Positions 11,651 through 56,539 of a stretch of 64,000 nucleotides of DNA are shown piece by piece. Below the pieces are notes generated by a model that did not search any database, was not told where the DNA came from, and saw nothing but the letters and a program-made list of their open reading frames with translations. A program made the translations under genes and the position numbers. Source of the stretch: Ceratodon purpureus. Its lineage: Eukaryota; Streptophyta; Bryopsida; Pseudoditrichales; Ditrichaceae. The stretch spans positions 4,877,669 through 4,941,668 of the forward strand of contig CM026432.1 of assembly GCA_014871385.1 (NCBI GenBank), written 5' to 3'. Each line of letters opens with the position of its first letter. Position 1 is the first letter of the stretch.

Positions 11651-11660
11651 GGGCCTAACA
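11651..11660. repeat. left target-site duplication of large MULE
   Basis: GGGCCTAACA, identical to the 10 bp at 29259-29268. MULEs typically duplicate 8-11 bp on insertion. Confidence 0.9.
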
Positions 11661-11738
11661 GAGGGAAGCTTGTACGTGAGCGGAGAGCGCAGAGCGGAGA
11701 GCGGTGAGCGCAGATTTGGAGAGCGGAGAGCACAGAAT
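11661..11738 (+). repeat. left TIR of large MULE
   Basis: Begins GAGGGAAGCTTGTACGTGAG and continues with GAGCGGAGAGCG-type repeats to CACAGAAT. It contains one extra GAGCGGAGA relative to the right TIR. Further in, GACCCTATGACCGTGGAA (about 11851) matches GACCCTATAACCGTGGAA inside the right end, so the homology extends to about 200 bp. Confidence 0.9.
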
Positions 11739-12159
11739 GGGGGACAGAACCTAAAAATAGCAACTTTTTTACTAAAAATAAATTATAAAATTAGAAGATC
11801 CGAATATTCTTAGTGTATTTTTGGAAAAATACTAATTTTAGTAATTTTATTGACCCTATGACCGTGGAATAATTACAGTGTTTTCATTGAATTTGTAGTT
11901 CGTTTTCTCTTTTTTTTGATGATTAATTTTTTAACGTGCACCAATTACTATGCTCCAGCTCCTTCTAACTAGTTTAGGCATACATTAATTCCCTTTATCT
12001 CCTCAAATTTATATGCAAATTACCGCATAAAATGTATTGGTATTAAAGTTCTTAAGAGGGATAAAGTAACATTTAATATCGTAACAATTTCTTAACATTG
12101 TTAGAAATCATCCGCCATGGTCTACATGGTTTATTTTTTTTATTCTTCATATTAACTTC

Positions 12160-12720
12160 CATTACTCTATCTATCTTTCCTTTCCTTTAATTCTCTTTCA
12201 TTTTCTTTTCTCTTTCATTTTATTCTCTCTTTCATTTTATTTTTCCTTTCATTTTATTTTCTTGTTCCTTTTATTTTCTCTTTCATTTTATTCTCTCTTT
12301 CATTTTTTTTTCTTTCATTTTATTTTCCTTTTCATTTTATTCTCTCTTTCATTTTCTTGTCTCCTTCATTATAATTTCTCTTTCATTTTATTCTCTCTTT
12401 CATTTTTTTTTTCTTTCATTTTATTTTCCTTTTCATTTTATTCTCTCTTTCATTTTATTGTCTCATTCATTTTATTTTCTCATTCATTTTATTTTCTCAT
12501 TCATTTTATTTTCTCATTCATATTATTTTCTCATTCATTTTATTTTCTCTTTCATTTTATTTTCTCTTTGATTTTATTTTGTCTTTCATTTTATTTTCTC
12601 TTTCATTTCCTTAGAGGCCTTCATATTATTTTCAACCTTAATATTTATTTTTGCTTTTTTTCCTTTTAGCTTTTATAAATTTTTTTTATTTTTTTTTATT
12701 ATTTTTTAATTTTAAAAGCT
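12160..12720. repeat. T-rich TTTCATTTTATTYTC tandem array
   Basis: Several dozen imperfect copies of a roughly 15 bp T-rich unit, ending in poly-T. It is open in one frame as a Phe/Ser-rich pseudo-protein with no biological meaning. Confidence 0.85.
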
Positions 12721-12828
12721 AAATGACTTCTGCCCAACCTTCATCCTTTTCCATTCAGTTGAGGAAGATGCAACTTTCAAATGAATGAAAATCCGATTTT
12801 CAAGGGCGCCAAGCATCTCCTTCAGGGA

Positions 12829-12836
12829 TATTTAAG
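12829..12836 (+). promoter_or_regulatory. TATA-like box TATTTAAG upstream of left ORF
   Basis: TATTTAAG lies 78 bp before the ATG at 12914. The same octamer occurs 60 bp before the methyltransferase ATG, suggesting a shared core promoter type within the element. Confidence 0.4.
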
Positions 12837-12913
12837 ATAAGAGTAGGGAATGTCTCAGCCTCTTTTGTGTTGGTGTTTTGTGAAGCTCTTTTCCGTAGTG
12901 CGGGACAACAGCT

Positions 12914-13366
12914 ATGGAAGACGTCAGAGATATTGTTGTTTCACTTGCTGACGATGTTTGTCCATTTCAACCATATGTTGAGGTGGACGACGAAGAAGAG
13001 GTGATGGGCAACAGCCAAGGGCGTCCTTCGACAAGGGATGTTGACGTACAACCGGATGTAAGAGCTGACCCTCCACGTTCAGAAAATTCGGATGAAATCA
13101 GAGTGCTAGAGAAGGACGCAGATGTGCCTTTGCAACCACATGCCTACTCGAAGGTTGGAAAGATCCCAAGGGGAACCTATTCCAGGGAATCAATTAATCG
13201 GAGGCGGGGAGGTGGGCCATTGCTGAAACGATCATTCCAAGGACATTTGCCAAGTGTGGGAACGAAAGTGAATGCGAATGTAGTTTCTCCTGTAGTACAG
13301 TCAGCGGCTGGCAGTCCTGCTGATAGTGTAGTGGGCAACCCTAAACGTGTTAGGTTCGAAGATTAG
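12914..13366 (+). CDS. element-encoded hypothetical protein (left ORF)
   Basis: A single-exon ORF of 150 codons starting MEDVRDIVVSLADDVCPFQP and ending GNPKRVRFED. The N-terminal third is acidic (VEVDDEEEV). The middle carries a basic patch (YSRESINRRRGGGPLLKR) and the end a KRVRF motif that could act in nuclear import. I recognise no domain. A TATA-like box precedes it and an AATAAA (about 13399) follows. It is convergent with the transposase gene, whose stop is 255 bp away. The position recalls the second gene of other MULEs, but there is no visible similarity to MURB. It could be an accessory factor. Confidence 0.55.
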   Translation: MEDVRDIVVSLADDVCPFQPYVEVDDEEEVMGNSQGRPSTRDVDVQPDVRADPPRSENSDEIRVLEKDADVPLQPHAYSKVGKIPRGTYSRESINRRRGGGPLLKRSFQGHLPSVGTKVNANVVSPVVQSAAGSPADSVVGNPKRVRFED

Positions 13367-13620
13367 GACATCTAATAACAAGTATATGTTTGCCTTAATA
13401 AAGGGTACATGTCAGGGGATACGAGGTATATAGTGCACTTCTTCAAGATAGAATGTATTGAAATAGAATGCAATCAATGTGAACGCCAAAGCCTTTAATA
13501 TAATGAAAAAGTCAATACAGCTACTCAATAGCTGACTTAGTATATGGTATATTACTAAAATCATTCACTACGTGACAAATGGCCATTGTGGAAATGGAAG
13601 TTCTAAAGTAGGAGGGCTAC

Positions 13621-16600
13621 CTACTTCTTCGCCAAGGGGTGACGCAAGATTCCACCCTCTAAGAGTAGCTTGACCTCGTTGAAGCTGAAGGTAGGCGCAT
13701 GGATGAAAAGCTCCGCTTCGGGATCACGGTTGCAGACCTTCAAGAATATGTAGTATAGGTGCTTACAATACGCGAACTGAGTCTTCCCACGGAACGTAGT
13801 CATTGTCTTCTTGAATGCTGGGCAAGTGCAACCAGGGTAAGAACTGATGGTAATCTGGTACCGTGTGATGTGAGGAGCGACGCCGGAATCCAGCCCAATG
13901 ATGCAACCGTGGCCCGGCTCAGGTATCATGGTGATGGAACGGAGGCGCGCTTTAAGAGATTCGGAGGAGCCCATGGAGAGTCGCTGCGCTTGATTGGGAC
14001 GAGTAGCAGTGCGCTTCACCATCTTGCCGTCTCTCTTCCCTGGGTAGCGGTCAGCGTCTGCAGGGACTGGCACTGAGCTGAGATTTGCAGGAGGCGGGGC
14101 TGAGGAGAAGAGGCGTCTTGGGGAGACCGGTTTCTTCTGCGGAAGTTGAAAGCCCGCTGCTTCGAGGGCAAGAATCTCAGTAAGTTTTAGGTTAGTACCT
14201 AGTTTCACTGGCCACACCTCTGGAATGGAGGGGAATTCCTGGTCCTTTGAGTAGTGTGCTACCCACTTGCGCTTAGAGCCTTTCACGCAACGCTCAATAT
14301 CGTCGGAGCAGAAGAAGAACTCAGTCTTCTCCACTAGGTTCCTGCGATAGTTAGTCCAGAGCCCAGTGTAGGTCGGTGCAGCTGTGGAATGGGGCCCTCT
14401 GACGATTCTCTCAGTGCACTTCTTCTTCGTTTCAGCTCTTTGGGCCCAGCAGCACTTCGCAGAAAGTTTGTGTAGTCTCGAAATGTGCCACTCCTTCACG
14501 TCCACCTTGGTTTCTTCAACCGCGTTGACATGGCGAATGCCGCCCTTGTTCACTGGTGAAGGTAAAGGGGAATCAACTTCCAGGGCAGGAGGTTGCGTAC
14601 ATTGTACCTCGGTGTCGTGTTCAGAGTCGTCTTCCACAATGACGGGCATCTGCATAGGGCGAGCCCTGACGGCACGTCTTGGGCCTCTTGGGCGTGAGAA
14701 GTTGGTCTTATCCGGGCGATGAGACTCTTCGTCAGCTCCGATAAGGACGTCGGCTTTTCGCTTCTGTGAACCGAAGACTTCCGCTCCTGGCATGATAGGC
14801 TGACGGGTGCAGAACTCATCCGCGCCTGGCATATCGAGCATGGGCTTGTCGAGCAGTGTAGGATTTCCCCATTTCTTCGCGTTGCGTTCCGCCATCCGGA
14901 GTCTGAGTTCCTTCTTGGACGGTCCTGTTCCGCCGACGTCACCTTTGAGGAATTGGTAGTAGTTAACAACTTGAAGAAAAGCCCGAACGAAATCGTCCAC
15001 GGTAGCAACGTAGAGGTCGTTCCCGTTGTTTCCAGAAGCCTGGAGCCACTTGTTGTGAACTGTTTCGGCGAGGTTACAGGTGGGCATCTCTGTGAGTTCT
15101 TCTTCCGTGAATTTCTGCAATTTTGACAGTAGGTGCCATTAGATTCACGGATTAGAGTTTTGTAGGTTAGGGCTAGGAAACGAGTATGAAAAACATCAAA
15201 ACAGAGTTCAGAGATAATACCTCGGTCATGAATCCCCCCCATTGGCGGAAGCGGTGGTGCCAGAATGACAGCCACTGATCGAGTTTGATGAGCCCGCTTT
15301 CGCCAACGACCCCGGTGGATGCCCACCATGCACGCAACGCGTGGTACAGAGTTTCCGCCTCTGCCATGCTGGTTGCATTCTTGTACTGAGTGCACATCTT
15401 CTTGTGCTGTTCCCAGAGTTCTTCGGGGAAGTGCTTCTGCGTATACGCCACCATGTTCTGAGTCCAGTGGAACAAGCACGACCTCTCCCGGTCCTCCATT
15501 GGGTCTTCTTTGTTGCCATTGCCGTAAAGGATTCGCACTGCATTCCAATTCGCCTGTGCGTTATCCGCCATGAACCCCTTGAAGTTCGGCGCTGCAACGC
15601 CATTGATCTCCATGACCAGGTTCAGGTTTTTCCAGAAGACGAGCTGGGCGTCCGTGTCCTCGGACTGCATGTCGCAAGTGGCGATTGTCATCACGCGGCA
15701 GTAGGTGGCGTCGTAGACATGGCACGCCATCGTCGACCAATCTTTTACGCGTTTAACATGGTCGAACATGATCCATGCGTTCTCCAAATCGCCACCAGCT
15801 TGCATACGGCTGACCAAGTCGACACCACTGCCCGGCCCGACCTCCGACATCTTGAAGACAAAGACTTTGTCACGCATAGATCCCTGACCAGGAAACCTAT
15901 TCTCCTGGACATACGCCCAGAGACTGTTACCACGGAGCTTGGTGATACCGTCCATGATTCCGTACCTTACGAATTTTTTGAAGGTGGCGACTTTGTTGCG
16001 GATGTTGGGCGACGCCATGTCTTTGCATCGATCCAGAACAGGAACCAGCTCCTCCATCGTCAGCTTCCTCGGTGGTGCATCCTCGGGCTGTAGAAGGTAG
16101 CTCCCGATGAGGAGTTTGCTCGCCTCGAGGACAACGGCGCTCTTTGTTGCTTTGTTGTTCATCTCTACCTGCTCTTCTATTAAGCTACTAATCTCTGCTT
16201 TAGAGTCTCTGTAGTCTCCTACTTTCACTGGATGATCATGTGTTCCAATGTGAATACAAGCTCTAGTCTGATTCGGTTTGCCCACAACGTAATAAATCTT
16301 AGCCTCGCATGAAGCTACACATGATGGAGGTTCTTTACATACCTTGCACACTAGCGTGGAGTCAGATGGAGGAGGCTGATCCATGAGAAAAGCTTGCAGG
16401 GTACAGCCTTCGAACTCAGTCTCGTTAACCTCGAAGATCTTCGGAACACGCTTCAGGAAGTCACACTCCTTGTTGCTGCAGCGGAGCCATCCGACGCAGG
16501 TGGAACTTCGAAAAGAGAGTCCGAGGTCGTTTTTGATGTTTGTTGTGATGGTCTTGGTCCACAAGTGTCCGTCGTATCGTTTGTCCATTCCCTGCATTGA

Positions 16601-17386
16601 CTTGGCCGCGAGCTTAGAGGATCCTGCAGCAGCTGGGGGCAACTCAAAAAGAACCGGACCATCGAACTTCGCAGGCAAGTACTCAACTCTCTCGAGTCTA
16701 ATAGTGGAATAGTCTATCTTTTTCAAAATGTTTTTTGACCCACGTGTCTTAGCTAGCTGTTTAAGGAGGGGGACAATGCTAACTGTGACCTGGGACAATG
16801 GAGGAGAGACATTGGAAGGAGGAGCATCTGCGTGGACCTTAGGCACGAACTTGACGGGACTGACTTCGTCATCAGAAGAGAGAGATATGACGGTCGAAGG
16901 AGGTTTCTCTACATCTGAAGTCTCGGTACCAGGCTCGACTTTGACTTTGACATCACGAGGTAAGGGAGTCTGAATTGTGCAAGTAGAAGAGCGACGGGGG
17001 GTGAGGATCTCAGTGGATGCAGCCATAAGAGAATCAGTAAGACCATAGACTCTATAGGATCCAGGGAGGAGTCTCCACTGTAACATATTGTTTTCATCTC
17101 TCACTGAAGGTTGCCCAAGGGTGTGGGTAACCTCCATAGTAACGTCATCAAAGATTTCCTCCTCTATACTGATCGAATCCTCACGGAAATGGAATCTGAG
17201 ACTCAGGCGAAGAGAAGAAACTGTAGCTAGACCATCGTCATCTACGCGAAACCTAAGAGGGATGCCCATGCCTTGGGCGTACAGACAGACCATCCCCATA
17301 TTCGCAGGCAACTCAGGCAAGAAGGGAGAAGTGTGACTGTACTGGCGAAGCAATATTGCGAGAGCAAAGTGAGAGGAATGATGCAT
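13621..17386 (-). CDS. MULE transposase with WRKY/GCM-like finger and SWIM domain
   Basis: Two exons: 17386-15221 and 15114-13621, with a 106 bp GT-AG intron (donor GAG/GTATTA, acceptor TTGCAG/AAA, phase 0). The product is 1,219 residues. Residues 1-270 are an unrecognised N-terminus with an acidic, serine-rich linker (about 155-180). Residues about 285-390 form a WRKY/GCM1-like zinc finger (C297, C303, C308, later Cys pairs, and H383-D-H385). The DDE core has D559 in VYDATYC, D608 in FMADNAQ, the MULE C-x2-H motif (C637-LF-H640), and E676 or E678 in SMAEAETLY. After a linker with further conserved Cys (FFFCSDDIERC), the SWIM finger is C1151-x-C1153...C1172-x-H1174. These are the parts of a MuDR/MULE transposase that binds TIRs and cuts and joins DNA in the nucleus. 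An alternative start is M30. It is divergent from the methyltransferase gene. No stops interrupt it. Confidence 0.85.
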
Positions 17387-17922
17387 CGCTGTTGATCATT
17401 ATATTCAGGTCGAAATGTCCATGTGAACAGGTGGAGAATGATTCATTCTGTTACGTAACGAATGTACGATTTAAGAGGGACGGCTCTAACTATTTGGAAT
17501 ATGACTTTTTGCTGGCCGAAGTATAGCAGGTAAGATATTAATAACTGTACTTTAATAATTTCAATCGTGGCGCAGATTCTATTAGTTATAAAGTTTGGTA
17601 AGATTGGATTGCGCCGTCTTTAAAATTCTACATTTAAATCAGTGAATATAAAAAGGAGCATGCTTTCAAGTGCTTGATTCTAATCTTTTAATTTAGAGTG
17701 TGCTTGGATTTCGACTATATATTTAAAGGTTAATATTTTAAATTACGCTTCACAATAGAACTGTTATGGATATTTTTAATATAAAGAGTGTATATAAAAA
17801 GTGTTAAGATGCTATATGAATTTAGGGTTGTATCCAAATAGTTGTTCCTTATAGGTATTTAAGCGGGACGGAAGTTCTTCAGAGAGTCTTTTTGTGAGAG
17901 AGTCAGTCCTTTGGTAAGACAC
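17387..17922. promoter_or_regulatory. divergent promoter region between the two element genes
   Basis: 536 bp, AT-rich. A 14 bp motif, TTTAAG(A/C)GGGACGG, occurs at 17470 and again at 17858, about 390 bp apart. The second copy overlaps the octamer TATTTAAG (17856-17863). TATATAAAAA lies at 17791. These are candidates for shared control elements of the divergent pair. Confidence 0.45.
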
Positions 17923-20900
17923 ATGAAGCAGAGTGGAGGGCCATCTCCCTCCACTTATGTCACTCCTAAACCTAGACGAAAACGAGGTGTTACAGATTTT
18001 ACGGATAGAAGAGCGAGGAAGAGGAGAGAGTCACGTAAGAAGGTAGAATTTAAACCTGACCATGTGAGTGCTCCTGTGAAAACGAGAGGATCAGGTTTGC
18101 CTGTAGCTTTAAAGTTCTGTAGCATTCGTAAACTTATTCTAGACTCTATAGTGGAGGAGGAGGAACAGATTTTAGAGAACACCGTTTCCAAAAATCTCGA
18201 GGAGGAACAGGAGGTACTCTTATGTGGAGTTGATGGTCAAGCCATGACGGAAGAATTTGTTTTTAATTGTAGTCAAAGAGTGGAGACCCCGCAGCCGTCA
18301 ATCGAATTCAATGACTCTTTGACGGGGGAGACGGCTTCTCAATCAGCTCTTAATTTTAACACTGATAAGGTAAGTATGTATAGACCATCTTTATTACTGT
18401 GGATCATTTAAATTAATTCAGTATTGTGAAGAGAAGAAGCGATACTATATACCGAATTGAAATAGTTTTAGAAGAAATTGCGAAGGATCAAATGGAACTC
18501 AGAAAATTGCCTGACAGCTGAAATTTCTTTTTCAAATGAACATAGAGTAACCAGAGGATAAGGGTGGTCGGGGAGTCAAGTGAGCATCTCATTCTCGTGG
18601 CGAGAAGGGCGAGGGAAGGAATTCTCAAGGCTGGTGAAGGGGGCTTAGCGATGGCGGCACGGGAGGCGGGTGAGCTCGGGCGAGGCGTGGAGGAGGGAGA
18701 TATGCCTGTGGGAGGAGGCGCGGCCGGTATGGGCGAGGAGCCACTTGAGCTTGCAGAGCTTGGGGGAGATGGAGGGCTCGGGATCGGAGCTGGAGATGAG
18801 AGCGAGCCAGCAGAGGGGGCCGAAGCTACTGAGGAGGACCCAGCTGATGACGACGACGAGGTTTCTCCCTAAACCCGCAGCTCTTGATGTGACATTCGGT
18901 TCTGTTTGAAATGTTGGATTTATTCGGCCGTACGGCAATGATTGGGGTAATGGGTCGTACAACTGTACTTGGATTCGGGTTTTGGGATTCGGGTTTTCGG
19001 ATTCCGAGAATGTGTGTAGATAGTGGATTGGGTTTTGGGATTGGAGGTTGCGGGTTTTGGGATTTGGAGCATGGGAAGTTCGGGTTTTGAGATTCGGGTT
19101 TGTGGGGATTCGGGTTGATTGTGTTAGTGAATGGGTCGATTTGGATTGGTGGTTCTCTACTTGAATGCTCGCTTGCTTTTGGGGTGTGGGTACTTGGTGG
19201 AGGGCACTTGGGGTGTGGGTTGCGGATTTTTGGTCTGTGGTTTGGGGTTATGTTGGTAAGCATTGTATTAGATGGGTTTCGCTCATCTGCAGCTGCTTGC
19301 GGCTGAGTGGATAGCATGCTCAAATGCTGTTGGGATTGTGGAGGCCATGCCTTCGGGCGGAATTCTTGAAGCTTTTTTTTCATAGTACTGCTGTTGACCA
19401 GTAGCATTAATGTCTGCTCTCGGGATTGCGGAGGCCCTGCCTTCACGTTTGCTCTCGGCAATGTGTCCAGATCGGAGTGCTGCTGCTGAGCATTTGGGAT
19501 GGTCTTGTGCCGATTCATTTGGGATGGCCACATCTTGTTAGTCGAGCTAGTACTGAAGTGAGCAGAGTGCACCTCATTCAGTCGTTGCTGCTGCCTGGGC
19601 TGCTGTCATGGGAAGGCTGCTGCCTTGGGAAGGCTTTTTATTTTGAATTTTTGATAATTAAAAAAATATAAAAAACCCCAAACCTACTGTCGTTGACGAC
19701 AGTAGGGCGGGGGCGTGGGGGTTGCTTTGGGGATTGTGTCCATTGAATGGGATTTTGTCATTCAGTCGCTGCTGGTGACTTGGGCTGAATTGCTTGGAAA
19801 TGCTTTGTGTTCTTTGAATTCTTGATTGTTTTTATTAACTTTTTAAAGGTTTTGATTGATATTGGGCAGCGGGAGGTGGTATTTCATTCTGAAATTAAAT
19901 TGCAATTTGTCGAGGTACGCATAGTGGAGAGCAGCGAGTCATAGTATCTGAGTACTAGAATCCATTCAAAGGTTGGGAGGTTGCTCTTGAGGTGTACAGC
20001 CGGGACCGATCTACATGTAATTGATGATAGTTTGAGCATTTGTTTTTTTTAAAAACTTATTTTAACAATTAAGAAAACCCGAGGCCTACTGTCGTCAACG
20101 ACAGTAGGCCGAGGGCATGCGTATGATTTTGGGGATTCTTGCTTTGATTGTTTTTTTAAAATCCGCAAGCCTACTGTCGTTGACGACAGTAGGCCGGGAG
20201 AGGAATATTGAATTTGGGGATTTTGGAATGTATTTTTTTTTATTTCATTTGAATTCATTTTCTGGAATGTCAACCCGGGAATGCTCACATTATATGAATT
20301 AGAATGTAATCATTATTGAGTTTTTTTGGAATTTGTTTTGTTTTTTTTTTTAAATTTTCAAAAAAAAAAAATCCGCAAGCCTACTGTCGTTGACGACAGT
20401 AGGCCGGGGGAGGAATATTGAATTTGGGGATTTTGCAATGTATTTTTTTTATATTTCATTTGAATTCATTTTCTGGAATGTCAACCCGGGAATGCTCACA
20501 TTATATGAATTAGAATGTAATCATTATTGAGTTTTTTTGGAATTTGTTTTGTTTTTTTTTTTTAATTTTCAAAAATAAAAAATCCGCAAGCCTACTGTCG
20601 TTGACGACAGTAGGCCGGGGGAGGAATATTGAATTTGGGGATTTTGTTATGGTTTTTTTTTTTATTATATTTGATGACATTTTGTTTAATGAGAATGCAC
20701 TTTTTTCCAAGTATTATCAAGTAAATGTGAATATTATGGAGTTTTTAGGTATTTATAGGTATTTCTGGGATTTAAAGGTATTTATATTACTATTTTCAGA
20801 AAATTAAAAATCCGCAAGCCTACTGTCGTCAACGACAGTAGGCCGGGGGAGGGGTATTGAATTTGGGGATTTTGGAATGTATTTTTTTTTATTTCATTTG

Positions 20901-23900
20901 AATTCATTTTCTGGAATGTCAACCCATGAATGCTCACATTATATGAATTAGAATGTAATCATTATTGAGTTTTTTTGGAATTTGTTTTGTTTTTTTTTTT
21001 TTAATTTTGAAAAAATAAAAATCCGCAAGCCTACTGTCGTTGACGACAGTAGGCCGGGGGAGGAATATTGAATTTGGGGATTTTGCAAGAATTTATTTTT
21101 TATTTCATTTGAATTCATTTTCTGGAATGTGTATGCATGAATGCTCATATTGTATCAATTAGAATGTGAACGTTATTGAGTTTTTTTGGAATTTGTTTTG
21201 TTTTTTTTTTTAAATTTTCAAAAAATAAAAATCCGCAAGCCTACTGTCGTTGACGACAGTAGGCCGGGGGAGGAATATTGAATTTGGGGATTTTGCATTG
21301 TATTTTTTTTTATTTCATTTGAATTCATTTTCTGGAATGTCAACCCGTGAATGCTCACATTATATGAATTAGAATGTAATGATTATTGAGTTTTTTTGAA
21401 ATTTGTTTTGTTTTTTTATTTTAATTTTCAAAAAAGAAAAATCCGCAAGCCTACTGTCGTTGACGACAGTAGGCCGGGGGAGGAATATTGAATTTGGGGA
21501 TTTTGGAATGTATTTTTTTTTATTTCATTTGAATTCATTTTCTGGAATGTCAACCCGTGAATGCTCACATTATATGAATTAGAATGTAATGATTATTGAG
21601 TTTTTTTGAAATTTGTTTTGTAATTTTTTTTTAATTTTCAAAAAAGAAAAATCCGCAAGCCTACTGTCGTTGACGACAGTAGGCCGGGGGAGGAATATTG
21701 AATTTGGGGATTTTGGAATGCATTTTTTTTTATTTCATTTGAATTCATTTTCTGGAATGTCAACCCGTGAATGCTCACATTATATGAATTAGAATGTAAT
21801 GATTATTGAGTTTTTTTGAAATTTGTTTTGTAATTTTTTTTTAATTTTCAAAAAAGAAAAATCCGCAAGCCTACTGTCGTTGACGACAGTAGGCCGGGGG
21901 AGGAATATTGAATTTGGGGATTTTGGAATGCATTTTTTTTTATTTCATTTGAATTCATTTTCTGGAATGTCAACCCGTGAATGCTCACATTATATGAATT
22001 AGAATGTAATGATTATTGAGTTTTTTTGAAATTTGTTTTGTAATTTTTTTTTAATTTTCAAAAAAGAAAAATCCGCAAGCCTACTGTCGTTGACGACAGT
22101 AGGCCGGGGGAGGAATATTGAATTTGGGGATTTTGGAATGTATTTTTTTTTATTTCATTTGAATTCATTTTCTGGAATGTCAACCCGGGAATGCTCACAT
22201 TATATGAATTAGAATGTAATGATTATTGAGTTTTTTTGAAATTTGTTTTGTAATTTTTTTTTAATTTTCAAAAAAGAAAAATCCGCAAGCCTACTGTCGT
22301 TGACGACAGTAGGCCGGGGGAGGAATATTGAATTTGGGGATTTTGGAATGTATTTTTTTTTATTTCATTTGAATTCATTTTCTGGAATGTCAACCCGGGA
22401 ATGCTCACATTATATGAATTAGAATGTTATGATTATTGAGTTTTTTTGAAATTTGTTTTGTTTTTTTTTTTTAATTTTCAAAAAAAAAAAATCCGCAAGC
22501 CTACTGTCGTTGACGACAGTAGGCCGGGGGAGGGGTATTAAGTTTTTGGATTTTTCAATGGTTTTTTTTTTCCTTTTCTTTGCTGCCATTTTGTTAAATA
22601 GGATTGCACTTCTGCTCACATAATATTAATAAATATGGGAACTTCAGTGCGGTTTTTTAAGTATTTACTTTGTAATGTTTTTTCATTTTCAAAAATTAAA
22701 AATCCGCAAGCCTAATTATGCTCACAAAGTCTTCATGAGATGTCTTGATACTTTGATTAGTTTTATAGTTTTTCCTGAAAGGCTTCTTGAGGTTCTGGTT
22801 TTTTTATTCATAGTTCATGATTTATTCTAATAATTGTAACATTGTTTGCGATTAAGGACTCTGATGGAGATCAACTTGGTAGCGAACGTCAAGACCCGAC
22901 GCCAGCAGAAACTGAGGTATTTCATTCAATCTACAACTTATATTAATTTTTTATGTTCATGATTTTTAATTCTATTCGCCCTCTTCCCTTCTTTGTTTCC
23001 TACTCTTTGAATAATGGAAGTTAATCCTCTCTTCATTTCTCCTACTCTAGGTATCATCCGATGCTCCTGAGATGTCCGCCACCTCCCCCATTTCTGTGAT
23101 CAATGTTTCCGATCTTTCGGATTCATTTGATCAGTACTACTGTACCTGTGATGTAGCCAACCCTGTAGGTGTGGAAAGTGGACCTCTCGAGGTCCACTCT
23201 CCACAGTACATGCCTACCTCGCCAGTGTACATGCCTACCTCTCCAGTGTACATGCCTACATCCCCTGTGTATGAGCCAACCTCCCCGGGCTATATGCCCA
23301 CGTCTCCTCCACAGAGCTCCCCGCCGATGTCTCCACCCTCTCCTTCCTCGCCGATTAGAGTCAGGAGGCCAGCCCATGTGGTCTTTGCTCTGCCGGCTAT
23401 TCTGCCGTGCCCTGTCCAACAGACCAGGCGATTTTGGAGGAGGCGCCGTCACTGGAACTGTAGACAGTCTAAGGAGTACTATAGTCGGTCCTCACGTAGA
23501 TAGTTTTATCAATCACAGATGATGATTGAGTTGTTAAAAGAGAGATGACAGTATGAAGATATATTGTTACTTTCTTTTACACACTTGTCTACTTTGCATG
23601 ACTTCCTTCGATTGTGCTTGTTCTCCTAATTTGCGCACCTTCTGGCAGGTTACGCAAACACAAGATGTGTTGGTGAAACCATCTTGTCCGATAAACTTGA
23701 AGACTGCCACAGAAGGGGAATTGGAACATCAAACCAAATTCAAGGTGAACACCAACGCCGTCATCAACAAGCTTAGGATCAAGCCATCGCAGAAGTCCCG
23801 AATGTCGGTACCCCTGTGCAGGATGATCCCAATGGCAAAGGTCAGACCAGTGGGCGAAGTGGGTGTGCAGCATTTGGAGCGGGAGTTCGTGAAGGGGTAT

Positions 23901-26900
23901 AGAGATGGCGACCGCGTTATGTACGTCTCCATGTACAACAACGAAGAGCAGACACGAGATGTTACGGATGAGGTCATGGGTAAATGGAGCCCATTGTGGA
24001 GGGACGCGAATGATGCATTTGAATCTGAGCTTCTAAATGACGAGGACTGGTCGCAATTCTCGGGGAAGATGTTTTTTGTCTGGGAAGGTAACCATCGCCT
24101 CTCAGCATGGCTTCGTCATATCAACAGGCATCATGCAGACGACCCGTCATGGCACATATCTGTGAACTGCATAGTACTCGATCCCCGTGGCCATGTTGGC
24201 AATCTTCTTCACGCAATGCATGACATCAACTGGTAAGTACTTGTTTCTTTTCTCCTGTTTTTCATTTCTTACTTTATCTCGTCTCTTTTATTCATCATAC
24301 GTATTTTGGTTTCTTTTCAGGTCTACTGAGAATGACCACGTCAAGAGTAATCTCCCAGCAAAACTATTTCGAATCCGCTCTTTTGGAATGATGAAGCTTG
24401 AGGAATTCAAAGACCTCCTCAGTCCTGAAGAGTATGACGCATGTTTGAAGAACAAGCCACCTAATCCCTCCTGGTTTCCCTTGACAACTAAAGTTTTCAT
24501 CGCATTTCTGTACCGAGTAAGTCCTACCTCTTCTCTATATTTGCTTCTTGATCTTAAATACTCGTGGAATTTCCTAAGTCTGAATTATCTTTCTACAGCG
24601 GGAACTCGCAGCGGCCTCCGATGAAGCAGCAAATGCCTACCGCATGAAGACACCCGAGGATGAGCAGTCTGCAAGTGCAGTTTGGGATGTCATGAATGAA
24701 GCATCAGAGAGAATGGTCGAAGCCATCAAGAAGAAGGACTTTACCAAGTACTTGGCCATTGCAAATCCCAAGAATGGTGACGACTTCCTCAATGAGGTGA
24801 GTCACTGATCATTGTTCAATTCACAATTTCGTACGACTTCATTAATTTTTGTATTTATCTTTTTCAAACTTCCTTGCTTCTTGCAGATTAATCGCCATTT
24901 CAGTCTCAACAATAAGCCTGAGATGTCAGTCGATAAGCTTCAGAAGGTTGTTCCTGCGGCCGTTGAGCCCAAATACAAGGCTCGTTGGTTGAAGTGGTGG
25001 AACTCATCCCCGACTGCTCGAACATCTTACAGATTTCTGCCATCTGAATTCAAAGACACCGAATTCGACCCATGGTTGAACAAAGCTTCATTCTGGGCAG
25101 GGGTAATTTCCATTAAAAATTTCTTTCGATTTCCTTGTTCCTTTATTTTTTTAACTGTATTTCTTCTTCGCTGCTACTTATATGATTTTTTAATTACAGT
25201 TGGAGGAAGCCGTCATCCACGAAGTCGAGAACATATTCAAGTCTGAGAACCTCGAAATCAATTGGATGGCATTTCCTGATGTCCAACAGCCGGGCGATTT
25301 TGTCGAGAGTTCACGTATTCTATTGTGGGACAAGGCCTTCCCTACGTTCATTGGAAAAAAAGCTGAGAAGCACTTCGACAAGAAGTCCAACTTCGCTAAA
25401 TTCCCTGGAACCGCTCAAGTTGTCAAGCGGGTTATTTACCGGTACATTACCAAACTTAATCGCATTTCCATTTCATAGTTGTCATTGTAATTGTTTCTTA
25501 TACTTACCTCCTTTGTGTCTTCCCATAGGTACTTCAAGCGAGAGCTTCTATTGAAGGGGGCCATCAGCGTTCAGCAACTCCCCATGTACTTCAAGCTTTG
25601 GACGCAGACAACCTCGGACCAGTGTATCTATTCTCCCCAGCAGATAAAAAGGTACAAAGCTGCTCACCTGGACGCTGGATGCTGGTATCTTGATTGTATT
25701 GGTGGTTTCACTATTGACTCCGAGGCGGAAGTCAAGATGCTGCACGATGGAGGTGCGGCTGTCGTGGAGGACTCCGTGGATGATGCAGAACGTCCTGAAG
25801 GAGATCAGGATCAGTCTTCTGCTCCTCCACCGAAGAGAGGGAGAGGAAGACGACTGAAATCTCTGGGTTCTCGGTCAGAGGCATCACAGCAAACTGGTGC
25901 GGAGTCTTCCGCGCCACCTGAGAAGGCACCACAGCCCTCTCCGGGTATTGTCGTTACGAACCCTTCTCCAGCTTCTTCGCCGGCTCCTTCATCGATCAGT
26001 GCTTCGGAGATCACCAGAGGTCTCCTTCAGCAGAGGAAGGCCAAACTATATCCTCAACCAACTTCTTCCGCTGGAGCTTCGATTTCCACACATGTTTCCG
26101 TCTTCAACTCATCTGTGGATTCCATGTTACGGCGAAATAGGAGACAGGAGAGAAAAGGTGGCGACCCGGATTGGATCAAGACTCAAGACTTCATTCGCAA
26201 GGTTTGTTCCTATATTTTGACATTAATGGATTCTGCCACCTCTACTCGCTATGTAGTTACTAACTCTGCTTTCTTGTTTCCTCAAGTTTGGAGCAGGCCG
26301 CGAAAACATAGTTGGGGACCGGTGCAAACAAGAGGACCATCTGGGAGTCGACTTGATCATTGCCGACATCCCTGAGAATCTTCCCGTCCCATCCGTTTCC
26401 GTTCCCCCCACGAGTATTCCGCCTTGGAACTCTCGCTACAAGGATTATTTGTACGACATCTTCCATTTTGCAGATGATTTCTTGCAGAAAGATGGTGCCA
26501 TCTGCCTCATCTACAACACTGATCAGAAGCTGGCTGAGGATATCGAGGTAGAAGCTGCTGGTGGTGGATACGTGCTGTTCAAGGACTGGTGGGGTGTCAA
26601 TGTACTCGGCCTGACTTCTCCTACGAACCCCGAGAACTTGGTACTTTTCCTAAACATGCCCTTCTCTTCGCTTACTGATAACCCTTCCGCTTAATTTTAC
26701 TCACTAGTTCTGCTTGACTGCAGACTATGCGGTTCTGGATTCGCGTCTACGTTCGTAGTGGCAGTACTTTCTCCTTCCAGACGAAGAAGGAAGACCTGAT
26801 ACATGGGCTCCTCAACATTACCGAGAGTGATGCCATTTTCAACTTCACCGATGCCGAATCCCAGCTCATGAATGGGGAGGTGCCGTGGAGAGGCCCAAGG

Positions 26901-27602
26901 GAGAAATCCCCTGAGATGATGCAGAACATCATTGAGGAGCTGTCCAAGCCCGGCGACATAGTCCTTGACTGGAATGCTGGGACAGGTATCTCTCTTACAT
27001 ATCTCTGCTTCATTTTTCCTCTCGTTCTTTCCAAAGTTTCTCATTTCTCTGTTTCTCTTCGATTTTCAGGGGCCTCCATCAAGGCCGCCCAGGCTGTTGG
27101 TCGTCACATTCTCGCTTTTGAGGAGGACGAAGCCATATTCAACGCCCTTCTCAAACCATCCGCCATGGGCCCTCCTAAACATCCAAGGCCGGCAGCAACA
27201 GGCGAAGCGCCTCCAAAGAGAGCAAGACCTGACAAGTGGTGTAAGTCTTCTATTCTTTGTTCAAATTATGCAATCAGTACTTCTCTTTCCACCTCTACGT
27301 ACAAGATCTAACCACAATCGGTTCTCTATTGCAGAGTAGTTTCTGCATCACCGCCACGTGTGCCAAGAGCAGTGTCCACTCCATCGTGGCGTCTTCAATC
27401 CAGCCCGATTCAGCCTTTCATACTTCCGGACTACGCAGAGGGCTTAGCACAGGCGTTTCAATCTGGAGCCATTACATATGTTCCTAGTCGGCCAACTACT
27501 TTTGATCCCAGGGCCCTTCAATTTGTCGATGACGAGGCGGTAGAAGGAGATACGGAGTCATCTAGTTCTGAGAGTGAAAGTAGTGACTGTAGCATGTTGT
27601 GA
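17923..27602 (+). CDS. CTD-like heptads + ParB-like domain + N4/N6 DNA methyltransferase-like protein
   Basis: Exons: 17923-18369, 22857-22916, 23051-about 23400/23500 (donor unresolved), 23649-24232, 24321-24516, 24599-24796, 24887-25102, 25200-25441, 25529-26201, 26287-26640, 26724-26985, 27070-27240, 27337-27602. Apart from that one donor, all junctions are GT-AG and keep phase. The product is about 1,360 residues. Exon 1 encodes a basic N-terminus (KPRRKRG, RRARKRRESRKK). Exon 3 has five CTD-like heptads (residues about 222-256). Exon 4 shows a ParB-like fold with KVRPVGEV and FFVWEGNHRLSAWLRH. Exon 9 is a Ser/Pro-rich linker. Exon 10 has DLIIADIPEN, the place of methylase motif IV (DPPY). 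Exons 11-12 have EKSPEMMQNIIEELSKPGD then IVLDWNAGTG (motif I, usually D-x-F-x-G-x-G). IV-before-I order is the beta class. Both motifs deviate from consensus, so catalysis is uncertain; it may act as a DNA-binding or scaffold protein. The tail is acidic and serine-rich. ParB-methylase fusions are typical of phages and bacteria. Confidence 0.8.
18560..18890. other. GC-rich island inside intron 1, possible captured gene fragment
   Basis: About 330 bp of GC-rich DNA in an AT-rich intron, open on both strands. The minus frame reads GRNLVVVISWVLLSSFGPLC, a membrane-like stretch. MULEs often capture host gene pieces (Pack-MULE behaviour). I cannot name a source. Confidence 0.3.
18960..19290. repeat. 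degenerate GGATTCGGGTTTT repeat in intron 1
   Basis: Roughly ten imperfect copies of GGATTCGGGTTTTGG. A similar (CGGGTTTTG)n tract occurs at 57245-57390 in the second element. Confidence 0.65.
19683..22730. repeat. array of 14 palindromes, mostly in 210 bp tandem units
   Basis: Each palindrome has arms CCTACTGTCGT and ACGACAGTAGG around a 2-base centre. Starts: 19683, 20085, 20170, 20380, 20591, 20819, 21030, 21240, 21450, 21660, 21870, 22080, 22290, 22500. From 21030 on the period is exactly 210 bp. Copies at 20085 and 20819 have the centre CA instead of TG, i.e. they are inverted. Between palindromes lies an AT-rich spacer (GGAATATTGAATTTGGGGAT and on). A broken copy ends the array near 22700. 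The array fills most of the methyltransferase gene's intron 1. Confidence 0.95.
23207..23311 (+). other. coding heptad repeat resembling the RNA polymerase II CTD
   Basis: Five in-frame 21 bp units encode YMPTSPV x3, YEPTSPG and YMPTSPP, followed by Ser-Pro-rich sequence. The Pol II CTD consensus is YSPTSPS. Y1, P3, T4, S5 and P6 are kept, while position 2 is Met or Glu rather than Ser. Confidence 0.9.
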
Positions 27603-28115
27603 GGTTGAAGGAGGCTTCGGTCTATTGTTGTTTTCATTTGATTTGATTTGATTTAATTGGAGTTCATTGGGTAATCCTTCGTCTACTCTACTTCCCTGAA
27701 CCTAAACTTGTTATAATTCTCATGTCCAATTTGTCTCCGTGTTTGTAAAGGATGAAATGTCACAACTGTAATGCTCAAAATATAATATGAAGAATGAAAT
27801 GTTACAAAAGAAAGTCTCAAATGTAATATTGTGCTGTTATTTATATTTTACTCATTCAAAATCCCACATTTGCATAGCCATGTTACCTATTCTTCACTTG
27901 GTGTACATCTTGGTTTCGGCTACTCCATTATTGTACACGAACTCTGAAATATTCCACGGACTTTTAAGACCATTTCTTTTAGTTCGTTTTTCTTTTATTA
28001 TTTCTAGAATCATCTATATTATCTAAAACCATCATGCTGGAATACTCGTATCTAGATCCAATGAATGACCAAATCTTAAGAATTGTATTCGAACACCCCA
28101 CTAGACTTCACTGTA
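27603..28115. other. 3' flank of methyltransferase gene, no further gene
   Basis: AT-rich DNA with polyadenylation-like AT stretches (about 27780) and no coding sequence recognised. Confidence 0.5.
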
Positions 28116-28487
28116 CTAGTCCTTCGAAGGATATACAGTCCAACTCTTGTCCATATCAAACCAGCAAGTTTCGCCATCCGATATGATCACTTCGGGCAGC
28201 TGAACAACTGGATTCTCATCGACGATCGATAGCAAGGGATACGGGATTAGGGATAACTCCATAATACGGAGAAGCTCATTGGTACAAAGCACTGTCCAAC
28301 GCCATTCACCTTCACGAACATGGAGGCTTCCGATGTGCCTAAACGGTGGCAGGTCCATGCCTCGATCCCTGGCGCGCTCCACCTCCAGCAGCCACGGCCG
28401 CAGCTCCTCATAACTCGCCGGTGCCTTTGGGGGCAAACCTACAGCCGCTCTCGTCCTCCTGGATCTCGCATTACACACCTTCGGCAT
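28116..28487 (-). CDS. element-encoded hypothetical protein (right ORF)
   Basis: From the ATG at 28487: 123 residues, MPKVCNARSRRTRAAVGLPP to SWTVYPSKD. The N-terminus is basic. The body has EELRPWLLEVERARDRGMD, then a well-folded-looking stretch (VREGEWRWTVLCTNELLRIM) and an acidic end. The frame stays open upstream to 28715, so an exon may start earlier (for example at SLPVTFEDYKNSV). I recognise no domain. It has clear coding character (GC-rich, mixed composition) unlike its surroundings. It could be an accessory protein of the element or a captured host gene fragment. Confidence 0.5.
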   Translation of the reverse strand: MPKVCNARSRRTRAAVGLPPKAPASYEELRPWLLEVERARDRGMDLPPFRHIGSLHVREGEWRWTVLCTNELLRIMELSLIPYPLLSIVDENPVVQLPEVIISDGETCWFDMDKSWTVYPSKD

Positions 28488-29188
28488 CGCGCAACACACT
28501 GAATTCTTGTAGTCTTCAAACGTTACAGGCAAGCTTGCAGATTGACATCCCCGAACTCCTACGCTACCTTCGCATACAGCACAGCATGCCAAGGACTGTG
28601 TCACTATCCTAATACACCTCCTAGAGACAAGCTCAAGAAACCAAGAGTGACCTCCTTCTCTGGAACCCAGCTTACCAAGTGTTGTTTCATGATGAAAATC
28701 TCCTACTTGTATCACTCAAATGAAGATGCTTTGCAACCTAGGAAGAGAGAGTAATCTTCGATGAAGACAAGGACTCTGACAAGGTATATCTTGGTTTCAG
28801 CAGTTAAGATAATATACACGAATTTTGAAATATTCCAGGAAGTTTTCAAACCTTGCCTCCTTTACGTTCTTTGAGATTTGTTTTTTCCCTTGTGAATTTA
28901 CATAATCCTATGAAGGAATTATTTGTTTGATCTAAAACTCAACGCCTGATCATTGTATCTTGCCTAAACCCATGACAAATCTAAAGAAATGTATGCATGA
29001 CGTCATCATGACATCAGCCCTAATTTGTATCTTTGAGAATAAACGTAATAAATTCTTACCAGAGATAATCTCTAATTTCCACGGTAATATACTCTTTTTC
29101 TAAAAAAAGTGTCAAAAATTAGCCTTAATTTAGTAATTTTCCACGGTTATAGGGTCTACTTTGCTTTTGAAAATTTTCCTAATTCTCA

Positions 29189-29258
29189 ATTCTGTGCTCT
29201 CCATTCTGCGCTCACCGCTCTCCGCTCTACGCTCTCCGCTCACGTACGAACTTTCCCC
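29189..29258 (-). repeat. right TIR of large MULE
   Basis: The reverse complement begins GGGGAAAGTTCGTACGTGAG and matches the left TIR through CACAGAAT. Confidence 0.9.
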
Positions 29259-29268
29259 GGGCCTAACA
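29259..29268. repeat. right target-site duplication of large MULE
   Basis: GGGCCTAACA, identical to 11651-11660. Confidence 0.9.
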
Positions 29269-53269: not shown

Positions 53270-53281
53270 CTTGCATTACCA
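53270..53281. repeat. left target-site duplication of second MULE
   Basis: CTTGCATTACCA, repeated at 58718-58729. Confidence 0.8.
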
Positions 53282-53646
53282 GTGAAGCTATCTTGTGAGC
53301 AGCGAGCGGGAGCAGAGAGCAGTGGAGGCGTTTTTGACGAATTTTTTTTTTTTTTTTTTTGAAAAACGCTTCGTTTTTTGACAAGTTTTTGGAAATTTTG
53401 GGAATTTTTTACGAAATAGGAGAGAAATTACTAAAATTAGTAAAGGACCTATCACCGTGGATTTTCGTGGTTTTTAGGATATTTTTGTTTAAAAATTCTA
53501 AATATAGAAGTTAAAAAAACTGATCATATATACACTGATTTTATTGAAATGAAGATCGGTTTAAAATGATTTTTTACCCTATTTTAACGAAATTTACTAA
53601 AATTTTTAATATTAGTTTTTTTTAAATAGAAAAAATTTGATGCGTT

Positions 53647-53838
53647 GGAGGTGTATCTCGGATCCGAGAGTCCCCTTGGCTATGCCTTAAGGGGACCTTC
53701 GGATCCGAGATACACCTCCAGAACATCGAATTTTTTCCTAAGGACATAGTTGGATTTGCAATGCTGGAGGTGTATCTCGGATCCGAGAGTCCATTTGGCT
53801 CTGCCTGAAGGGGACCCTCGGATCCAAAATACACCTCC
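53647..53838. repeat. two tandem long hairpins with TCTCGGATCCGAGA cores
   Basis: Hairpin 1 (53647-53719) and hairpin 2 (53766-53838) each have arms of about 31 bp starting GGAGGTGTATCTCGGATCCG. They repeat with a period of 119 bp. The overlapping open frames are artefacts. Confidence 0.9.
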
Positions 53839-54116
53839 AGAGGACAAACATTCAAGTAAACTCAATGATATGTTGTTGAGTTTTATCACCGGAAAATTGG
53901 AGTTATTTGTCATAGGGAAGAAGGATAGAGAGAGATTTCTATTTTATTGTCGAAAAAAACTCACCTAATTTGATTGTATATAATGGCATACAAAAATATC
54001 ATCTTTATTTTTCGTAGTTCAAATCAAGACAAATCCAATCCAGAACAAAACACTGCTGATATAGTAACCTATTGTCCACTAGGAGGCTACTTGTACGTTA
54101 TAAACTGAATAATTCT

Positions 54117-55493
54117 TCAAAAGGCACCCATTCGTTTGAGGATTTCCATAACCTCGTTGAAACTCTAACTCGGAGCGTGCATGAAGGAGTCTTCTTTAGG
54201 ATCCATCTTGCACATGTATCGAATAACATAATAAATATATTTGCAGTATTTCCATTGCTTGTTTTTCCCTAGATTCTCCGAAAGCATCTTGATGAAATCT
54301 AGGCAAGTGCATTCCGGAAAGCAGCCAATGGTGATGCGGTATAGCTAGCCCCTTCCCGTGTTAAAGGTAACAACACAACCATATCCAGGATACATAATAG
54401 TTGTTATCCCTGTAATAACGCAATGGTCCATGACAGCGGCGCTTTCCCACTTGTTACAATGCTCCACAGTTGGAGCATCAGAGTTCCTGCGAATGGAATA
54501 CCCACCTCGGAGCGTAGGTGTGCATTAGGATCCGCTTGTGCCTTGAAATGGTATCTCAGAAGAGGCTAGTTTGAATTTGCTTGGAATTGGCGGCGTGGTG
54601 ATAGAGCGCCACACTATTGCCATTGGAAACCCGCTTCTTCCAGGGAGAGTACCTCCTGTCGAGTGAGATTGGTTCCTATTTTGACTGGCCATACCATAGG
54701 AATTTCCACCCAATCCACAACAAATGACTTAGGACCCTCCTTCACGCATTGGTTGATATCATCAGAGCAGAACCAAAACTCTGCTACAGTCAAGCGTCTG
54801 GTGTAATAATCCTTCTTGTGTCCGGAATATGTAGGCGTCGCTATACCCCGAGCTTCCTTGGAGATCTTAGCGTTGCACTTCGTACGAGTCTGCGCCTGAA
54901 GTGCTTGACATTTTCGTTCGGATCAATTTGAAAGGCGAGCAATGTGCCACTCGAATGGATCGCACTCCGACTCCTGAACGGACGTGGTGTGCTGTACACG
55001 ACACGTTGGATCCGAAAGAGCCTCCTGGATCGGCCACCCGCGCCCTTGTTGATTGAGTCCCCATCGTAGGGATGGAAAAATTGACCTTATCAGAGCAATG
55101 AAAGTCATGGGTTGAACTAGGAGGAAGATCAAGCTTCCTCTTCATAGAGCCGAAAATCTCTACTCCTTCAAGTCCCTTCTCCTTCGTTAACACGTCTCCA
55201 GCTCCGAAATACGCCTTCATTGCCTCAGCTATCATTTCCGGGTCTAAGCTCCGCTGTACTTGACGGAGGCAGAGCTCTGCCTTGTCTAGTCCTTTGCCTC
55301 CCCTCCCTCCCTTTAGATACCTTCTATATTGAGTGATCTCCATAAACGCTTGCATTATGTCGTCCACAATTGTAGCGTATAGACATTCGCCCGTGTTTCG
55401 GGACTGTTGAAGCCACTTGTTATGTATAGTCTCTCTTAGGTTGCACGACGGCATGTCCACTCTCTTGTCCAGCGATAGGTTTTGTATAGGCAA
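54117..55493 (-). pseudogene. SWIM-exon remnant of the MULE transposase
   Basis: Homologous along its length to exon 2 of the gene at 13621-17386. MPSCNLRETIHNKWLQQSRN matches MPTCNLAETVHNKWLQASGN. FWFCSDDINQCVKEG matches FFFCSDDIERCVKGS. VWPVKIGTNL and EEAGFQ are also shared. The SWIM region reads ECTCLDF...YCKYIYYV, so the zinc-binding His of C-x-H is Tyr here. HAPS-SFNEV near the end matches HAPTFSFNEV. Several stops and frame changes interrupt it, and the exon carrying the DDE core is not found upstream. Confidence 0.8.
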
Positions 55494-56530
55494 TCAAGAG
55501 AATGCGTGTGATATAATATCATGTAGAAAATCTTTGTGTCTATTATCAACATCAAGAACATATAACAACATACTTTAAATATCATCACACTTAAGATACC
55601 TTCACACTTCTAAAGATCTAAAATCATTTATGGCATTATTCCATTGAAATCCAAAGGCCACCTTCATCTCCACTATTTTTCAAAAATATTTACAAGACTT
55701 GATTCCTTCTTAGATTCCAAGAACATTTCTATTCAATTCAAAATTCAATACATATAACCTTTGGTGGATCACTAAAACCTTTGGTGGATCGCCAGGTCAT
55801 TTTATTCATTCATATAATTTTATTTGTTAAAAATGTGCATCTTTTTTGTTAAAAATATGCATCCTCAAAAGGGCTCTCGGATCCGAAAGTCCCTTGAGGT
55901 GGGACTCCATTTTGCTCATAGTTTAGAATCTGGATGAAAAAAATGACCTAATTTTTTTTTTCTTCAAGATATGGCTTGTTATATGTTTTTGGAAAGCTCT
56001 CACTGTTAAGGCTTTCCAATGGTATATTACAATAGATATTTGGGAAAAAAATCTCCATGTGTAGTGCTTATTTTTAAAATACAGGTGTTGGCATATGCCT
56101 CTACATCCCCTCATTTATTTTAAAATAGGCACTACACATGGAGATTTTTTCCAAATATATATTCTAATTGCTGATTTTCCTCATACAATTCAAGATTCGT
56201 CATTTCCGGTCATGATTAGTGGTCTCTAGAGAATAATTCATGCTGTGTCCAGGGTACTTTCGGATCCGAGAGTCCATATGGGGGGGCTGATTTTCTTCAA
56301 GCATTTAGAGATTCGTCATTTCGGGTACTAATTACTGTTCTCTAGAGAATAATTCATGTTGTGTCGAGGGTACTTTCGGATCCGAGAGTGCATAAAGGGG
56401 GGATTGATTTTTCCTCAAGTATTTTGAATTTCCTCGTTCTCGCTAATAATTTGAGGCCTCTAGAGAAAAATTCATGGTGTGTCGAGGGTACTTTCGGATC
56501 CGAGAGTGCAAATTTGGGGGGCTAATTTCT
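55494..56530. repeat. spacer with 117 bp tandem repeats carrying TCGGATCCGA
   Basis: Three units of about 117 bp (palindromes at 56260, 56377, 56494) share CTCTAGAGAATAATTCATG and end GGGTACTTTCGGATCCGAGA. A further copy lies at 55877. A separate inverted repeat (GCACTACACATGGAGATTTT) lies around 56050-56150. The array separates the two divergent remnants, similar to its place near the 5' end of the methyltransferase gene in the large element. Confidence 0.85.
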
Positions 56531-56539
56531 GCAGATCTT

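Follow-up and report, generated by a model that had tools for sequence, protein, structure and literature searches.

What does a large, intron-bearing gene with a methylase-like domain and a putative ParB-like motif contribute to the transposable element that carries it? The question is raised by a locus in Ceratodon purpureus (assembly GCA_014871385.1, contig CM026432.1, positions 4,877,669 to 4,941,668), the whole 64,000 nucleotides of which were analysed and are termed the window, positions being counted from its first letter. A preceding sequence-only reading had described a Mutator-like element (MULE) with an exact 10 bp target duplication and inverted repeats at both ends, a SWIM-type MULE transposase gene, a divergent 13-exon ParB-methyltransferase gene (henceforth the partner gene), and two more open reading frames (ORFs) near the termini. 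The present analysis suggests, with the chances judged to be evenly balanced, that the locus represents a MULE family equipped with a self-recognition regulator resembling VANC but working from different parts, the DNA binding of the partner protein being predicted by analogy.

The outline of the element (element 1; 17.6 kb, positions 11661-29258) was confirmed as first described: the 10-bp target site duplication (TSD) GGGCCTAACA is exact and abuts both termini, and the terminal inverted repeat (TIR) arms (11663-11714 and 29205-29256) extend over 52 nt with a complementarity of 92%. An 18-mer from the TIR, sought with up to three mismatches, matched the window twice, once at each end of element 1 (expected 0.00 over 100 shuffles), and its exact form was matched nowhere in the viral contigs searched. 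In a chance control for the TSD, a 10-mer match within seven offsets was scored in 18 of 400,000 random position-pair draws, those less than 50 bp apart being counted as no match. The two small ORFs near the termini were likewise present, neither giving a Pfam match to E = 1 or an NCBIfam match to E = 10.

The transposase gene of element 1 consists of two exons and a single intron in a reading frame without a stop, and its product contains the residues D559, D608 and E739, a CxxH motif (CLFH) and, towards the C-terminus, the SWIM signature CxCx18CxH at residue 1151. Each of these is conserved in a homologue from a different source (L006, vide infra), the residue roles having been assigned by eye. 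The excerpted text of PMC6446971 gives TSDs of 8-11 bp for MULEs and a SWIM finger for many of them; the TSDs of element 1 (10 bp) and of a second element in the window, element 2 (11 bp), lie directly outside the TIRs and within this range, and the inverted ends typical of MULEs are represented by the 52-nt arms of the former and a 20-bp perfect inverted core in the latter. The MULE assignment of element 1 is a structural one, and would fit its TSD length, TIR, SWIM signature, D-D-E layout and CxxH motif. Pfam searches with the window transposase returned no Mutator match, only MELT_2 at E = 0.27, and the AlphaFold2 model of the single transposase-core exon (mean predicted local distance difference test score, pLDDT, 47) was not used. 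Viral contigs yielded no relatives of either the transposase or the partner protein when searched with short peptide patterns, the reach of which is confined to close relatives. The original description of a SWIM-type MULE transposase is compatible with this structural evidence, but no Mutator profile reaches its cut-off.

The divergent orientation and the 13 exons of the partner gene were also borne out, in a splice model made by the present authors from sequence alone (the exon 3 donor being uncertain), the reading frame of which carries a terminal stop only. Exons 1 and 2 are separated by an intron of 4487 bp. Over this long intron the GC skew is strongly positive (0.28-0.35 at 18001-22000), the top value among 2-kb steps in the window. 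The nine exons between 23649 and 27240 have a GC content of 0.505 (0.54, 0.41 and 0.56 at codon positions 1, 2 and 3), compared with 0.335 for the eight introns among them. Because the excerpted text of PMC13317346 describes the capture of host sequence by MULEs as frequent, the partner might be regarded as a passenger, a host gene taken up by chance by one MULE copy in the manner of a Pack-MULE; this is considered highly improbable, since the modelled coding sequence is open across 13 exons and not a gene fragment, and since the strongly diverged element 2 has a remnant of the partner in the same order.

The sequence-only reading had named the lack of any other copy with both genes between TIRs as a ground for rejection, and this is answered by element 2, a decayed member of the family. 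It can be aligned at its ends with element 1, is bounded by TIRs and an 11-bp TSD, and retains remnants of both genes in the divergent order of element 1. The three segments of its transposase remnant are 39%, 41% and 32% identical to the element 1 transposase in one comparison, and 41%, 41% and 34% in that used for kinship. More than one copy therefore has the pair of genes, and the relationship between the two elements is an old one. Beyond the right TSD of element 2, at a distance of around 95 bp, lies a 5S rRNA gene (103 bits, 58823-58941). The coordinates of all principal features are collected in Table 1.

Table 1. Positions, strands and distinguishing properties of the features of elements 1 and 2 in the window.
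Feature	Coordinates	Strand	Remarks
Element 1 left TSD, GGGCCTAACA	11651..11660	+	exact match to 29259-29268
Element 1 left TIR	11661..11714	+	mostly 7-bp GAGCGGA repeats
Small ORF near left end, 150 aa	12914..13366	+	
MULE-type transposase, 1219 aa	13621..17386	-	exons 17386-15221 and 15114-13624; homologue L006 with intron at the same place
Partner gene, 13 modelled exons, 1332 aa	17923..27602	+	ParB-motif region and N6_N4-methylase-like C-terminus; homologues L018, L019
Array of 14 24-bp palindromes, CCTACTGTCGT(TG/CA)ACGACAGTAGG	19683..22523	+	intron 1 of partner gene; most on 210-bp tandem unit
Five RNA polymerase II CTD-like heptads (YxPTSPx)	23207..23311	+	exon 3 of partner gene
Exon 4 with putative ParB-like motif WEGNHRLSAW	23649..24232	+	WDGNHRHFAW in L018; profiles negative
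Methylase core	26287..27240	+	DIPENLPVP (motif IV position), PWRGPREKS, DWNAGTGAS (motif I)
Small ORF near right end, 123 aa	28116..28487	-	
Element 1 right TIR	29205..29258	-	mostly 7-bp GAGCGGA repeats
Element 1 right TSD, GGGCCTAACA	29259..29268	+	exact match to 11651-11660
Element 2 left TSD, CTTGCATTACC, 11 bp	53270..53280	+	
Element 2, decayed family member, 5437 bp	53281..58717		20-mer CTATCTTGTGAGCAGCGAGC inverted near both ends
Element 2 palindromes, 7 exact TCGGATCCGA and 1 with 1 mismatch	53656..56505	+	4 sites 53656-53827, 4 sites 55875-56505
Element 2 transposase remnant	54135..55484	-	frameshifted, with stops; 114, 103, 81 bits; best of 100 shuffled queries 25.4
Element 2 partner-gene remnant	56586..56831	+	with stops; 34% identity, 40 bits, E = 2e-6; best of 100 shuffled queries 26.6
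Element 2 right TSD, CTTGCATTACC, 11 bp	58718..58728	+	

Relatives outside the window were recovered from G001 (AVDCRST_MAG81), a cyanobacterial genome bin of 4.8 Mb. A single scan of genome contigs with a transposase alignment yielded one locus, L006, a homologue that covers residues 41-1208 in two open reading frames, has its intron (GTAAGT..CAG) placed as in element 1, and is 46% identical to the element 1 transposase in its first exon. The same bin carries partner-gene homologues on two contigs, L018 and L019; between exons 4 and 12 the window gene has eight introns, of which five are matched in L018 to within a few residues and three are absent there. The proposition that these copies are cyanobacterial was rejected on the basis of their intron-like gaps with splice-type ends and of their isolation, G001 being the sole match (E <= 1e-10), for the transposase and for the partner gene alike, among 386 cyanobacterial genomes sampled (itself included); the latter makes a eukaryotic contaminant the natural reading of all three loci. 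The occurrence in a public cyanobacterial bin of intron-bearing, transposon-type contigs that are eukaryotic by all signs is a probable contamination of the record. Comparison of L018 with L019 by a simple Nei-Gojobori count over five exon segments (813 codons, the ParB-motif exon, which does not occur in L019, lying outside the count) gave a nonsynonymous rate (dN) of 0.025, a synonymous rate (dS) of 0.318 and a dN/dS ratio of 0.078 (bootstrap 0.054-0.108). The partner protein has thus been kept for function in the eukaryote concerned, either as a transposon gene or as a domesticated one.

Bearing on self-recognition is the observation that palindromes are repeated in non-coding DNA beside the partner gene, and that their kind differs between family members. 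The palindrome of element 1 (also written CCTACTGTCGTTGACGACAGTAGG) has the centre TG in 12 of 14 copies and CA in the other two, its 22 arm bases being identical throughout; with up to three mismatches allowed, the window contains 14 matches, all in the intron 1 array (expected 0.00), and G001 contains none (reversed control, 1 per strand). The CA-centred copies are those at 20083-20110 and 20818-20843; the latter, whose flanking sequence keeps the usual orientation, looks as though it had been inverted in place. Element 2 has a different palindrome, placed at four sites near its left end and four between the two gene remnants: TCGGATCCGA occurs in the window only within element 2, at seven of seven exact sites and nine of nine with one mismatch allowed, compared with an expectation of 0.83. 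The longer form TCTCGGATCCGAGA is exact at two of these eight sites and within two mismatches at seven. In G001 this 14-mer has exactly three sites (reversed control, 0), all upstream of the ParB-motif exon on C58, the contig of L018, where each copy sits inside a longer perfect or near-perfect palindrome and a decayed fourth copy accompanies them; the four lie together within around 370 bp at the end of the contig, at a distance of some 380-730 bp from the ParB-motif match that follows. An 18-mer form with up to three mismatches gave four sites in G001, all on the same contig (reversed control, 1). The transposase remnant of element 2 is closer to the G001 transposase (58%, 61% and 48% identity over its three segments) than to that of element 1 (vide supra), so that the kind of palindrome goes with transposase kinship. 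The partner remnant of element 2 is too short a stretch for its own kinship to be told.

Two rival explanations bear directly on these palindromes. They could, instead of being binding sites, be by-products of the turnover of tandem repeats, of conversion driven by hairpins or of the insertion of small palindromes, with the protein acting elsewhere, an explanation compatible with the location of most element 1 copies on a 210-bp tandem unit, with the strong hairpin (z -5.4) given by the one unit folded as single-stranded DNA, and with the two CA-centred copies. Within the repeat core, the flanks of most palindromes agree to 88-100%, and much of the palindrome sameness there is accordingly young duplication; the other repeat units of the array are 62-74% identical to the outermost unit over 101 nt. 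The outlying copies at 19683 and 20085 have arms that are perfect even though gapped alignment of their 40-bp flanks with the reference unit gives no more than 68-75% identity (random 40-mers, 48%), and in element 2 and L018, DNA of different organisms, palindromes sharing one core recur in non-coding DNA; the by-product explanation is for both reasons judged decidedly improbable. Alternatively, the partner could be a co-factor of transposition or integration comparable to mudrB, and not an anti-silencing or transcription factor. A transposase accompanied by a further ORF or insert is an arrangement that element 1 shares with MuDR (mudrA/mudrB), Mutyl mutB, MULE-Solanaceae_1 and MULE-Cc, according to the excerpted text of PMC6446971; the gene pair recurs, and half of the eight element 2 palindromes lie near the left end. 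Against this, none of the 14 palindromes of element 1 is at the termini, and the mudrB-like explanation is held to be unlikely.

The C-terminus of the partner protein clearly belongs to a methylase domain family, since Pfam N6_N4_Mtase (PF01555) matched it at E = 1e-8 (35.9 bits; curated cut-off 26.7) and PHROGs also gave methylase families; the L018 homologue reached 23.0 bits, below the same cut-off. The best solved relative of the domain by sequence was CcrMI (E = 0.0017), and like the bacterial and phage N6_N4 amino-methylases CcrMI and DpnA it has motif I, in the form D..A[GS]TGAS, and the segment PWRG[PA]REKS, common to the window protein, L018 and L019. Unlike CcrMI and DpnA, the partner is a much longer, intron-bearing protein with D[IV]PE in place of DPPY: the position is occupied by DIPENLPVP in the window and by DVPEDLPVP in both L018 and L019, the catalytic [DNS]PP[YFW] motif being absent from all three copies that cover it. 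As the window and L018 proteins are only 28.6% identical over the methylase region (143 of 500 aligned residues), the altered form has been kept over a long divergence and is not a recent lesion.

The possibility that the partner is an active DNA amino-methylase, marking or protecting element DNA with N4-methylcytosine or N6-methyladenine, has to be weighed with care. The domain families, the conserved motif I and PWRG[PA]REKS segments and the purifying selection are all in its favour, as is the departure from DPPY (DIPYN) of the N6_N4 protein of one unverified phage record. By way of contrast, glutamate stands at the tyrosine position in every copy covering it, and a bdelloid rotifer enzyme, N4CMT, loses activity when the Ser and Tyr of its SPPY motif are replaced (PMC8885841, in excerpt). 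Active methylation is on balance thought improbable: to judge from the D[IV]PE sequence, enzymatic methylation by the partner is doubtful, and a glutamate where the catalytic tyrosine belongs suggests that the domain is probably an S-adenosylmethionine-binding or structural module and not a normal N4/N6 methylase. The earlier label of methyltransferase is hence retained for the domain family, on the strength of Pfam and PHROGs, and activity is not to be assumed. In the excerpted account of PMC8885841, N4CMT is, like the partner, an amino-methylase of bacterial origin that a eukaryote acquired and whose role has to do with transposons, but it differs in having a chromodomain and an active SPPY, and its carriage by a transposon is not described there. 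Among phages, 57 records matched a query comprising nearly the whole partner, and all 20 of the matches listed were in the C-terminal methylase part. In plasmids the N-terminal and central parts had no match up to E = 1; a separate plasmid search used the methylase part only. Eukaryotic transposons encoding a DNA methylase-like domain are known among the DIRS-type elements, which are retroelements with a tyrosine recombinase and an unrelated architecture.

The ParB-like affinity of the central region is a motif-level guess, the label resting on one conserved motif, G-x-[HR]-R-x-x-A, which we take to be ParB-like and which is present in both copies covering the region (GNHRLSAW in the window, GNHRHFAW in L018). 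ParB itself binds palindromic parS sites and hydrolyses CTP. Alignment of the partner region to one plasmid ParB with hhalign gave a probability of 0.2%, although that ParB itself scored only E = 0.006 against ParB_N; the plasmid ParB had no relatives in the viral contigs, and PF02195 was found in neither of two phage records. Of the claim of a ParB gene, the motif thus survives, every profile test having failed.

Exon 3 of the partner gene adds a series of heptads resembling those of the C-terminal domain (CTD) of RNA polymerase II: YMPTSPV YMPTSPV YMPTSPV YEPTSPG YMPTSPP. All nine inferred changes in the codons for Y, P, T, S and P are synonymous third-position changes, whereas codon changes at heptad positions 2 and 7 do alter the residue; such variation argues that exon 3 would be translated in frame with the heptad pattern kept. 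L019 begins downstream of the region where heptads could show.

Taken as a MULE family with a self-recognition regulator, the system would be an autonomous cut-and-paste transposon family with two divergent genes, in which the partner would be a DNA-binding regulator of bacterial descent (from a ParB-like/amino-methylase protein) that binds the palindromes of its own subfamily and thereby marks or opens the element's own chromatin for transcription and transposition. The CTD-like heptads might attract factors associated with RNA polymerase II, and the methylase domain would again serve as a binding or structural module. The direction of action, whether anti-silencing or activation, is inferred. 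The wider proposition, that a bacterial partition-like module was adopted by a transposon family (a ParB-motif protein, a re-purposed methylase domain and, in at least the window copy, a polymerase CTD mimic, co-diverging with parS-like arrays to give each subfamily a private system of self-recognition and of anti-silencing or transcription), is advanced only tentatively and may well not hold.

The regulatory role of the partner is suggested by a layout like that of VANC and the VANDAL elements, in which an accessory gene is accompanied by family-specific non-coding motifs. According to the excerpted text of PMC5735166, the binding sites of the VANC proteins encoded by VANDAL MULEs are short motifs that recur in non-coding DNA (intronic, intergenic and terminal); VANC action leads to loss of DNA methylation, and the motif is not the same from one family to another. 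The likeness to the VANDAL MULEs of Arabidopsis and their VANC anti-silencing proteins (Hiun), with an accessory gene and a family-specific motif in tandem in introns and intergenic DNA (PMC5735166, same excerpt), is an analogy at the level of function only. The VANC motifs described there are of 8-9 bp in one orientation, unlike the present palindromes of 10 to 30 bp, and one review, again in excerpt, calls VANDALs non-TIR MULEs (PMC13317346), unlike element 1. The main text of PMC6446971 on MuDR-type MULEs contains the words 'ParB', 'methylase' and 'methyltransferase' 0 times, and no MULE with a ParB-methylase partner was found among the matches listed in the open-access literature, judged by title and the start of the abstract. 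The parts employed would also differ, and we presume that VANC is neither a methylase nor a ParB-motif protein.

A number of points weigh against this interpretation. Profile evidence for a Mutator/MULE transposase is a single sub-threshold match, and that to the homologue L006 (PF00872 Transposase_mut, E = 0.038, 13.3 bits, cut-off 21), with a plainly chance match beside it at E = 0.07. No ParB family was found for the partner protein in Pfam, NCBIfam, PHROGs or PDB sequences, and the AlphaFold2 model of the single ParB-motif exon (mean pLDDT 35) was not used. No heptads turned up in the six frames of L018, in which about 750 bp precede the ParB-motif match. Recombination could preserve palindromes that lie on tandem repeats, and as L019 stops short of the upstream region, L018 is the single foreign copy that could show them; moreover, the partner remnant of element 2 shows no greater similarity to L018 (28%, 38.9 bits) than to element 1 (34%, 40.4 bits). 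Outside the window the two genes are on separate short contigs, so that their linkage is seen in the window only.

Several minor features of the elements were also recorded. A 17-bp minisatellite, TTCTCTTTCATTTTATT, of about 25 copies occupies 12191-12608, inward of the left end of element 1 by around 0.5 kb, and a 69-bp direct repeat of 74% identity (27903-27971 and 28784-28852) lies either side of the small right-end ORF. Each end of element 1 has an exact copy of the subterminal motif GACCCTATNACCGTGGAA (11852-11869 and 29139-29156), which recurs with three mismatches at the left end of element 2 (53445-53462). Other three-mismatch matches are at 29077, 50431 and 50746 (total expectation 0.21), and those at 50431 and 50746 may mark another relic. 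Elsewhere, the window contains a tRNA-Gly gene and a weak potato-inhibitor-like ORF (E = 0.0013, below cut-off), which together with the 5S rRNA gene are compatible with a plant origin but no proof of it. There is also an inverted duplication of 460 bp at 87% identity (4857-5316 and 46056-46515, 41 kb apart), probably another repeat family.

Plant transposon-encoded anti-silencing is known from few examples, VANC among them, and the system in Ceratodon purpureus would, if the wider proposition is true, amount to the VANC strategy having been invented a second time, independently, from prokaryotic components. A second, unrelated matched kind of protein and palindrome would show selfish DNA evolving private recognition codes; with two palindromes in two subfamilies, the co-evolution of protein and site could be put to the test, and a sequence-specific tool for plant chromatin could follow. 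In the D[IV]PE change, nature provides an example of a DNA methylase-like domain that is under strong selection while lacking the canonical catalytic motif.

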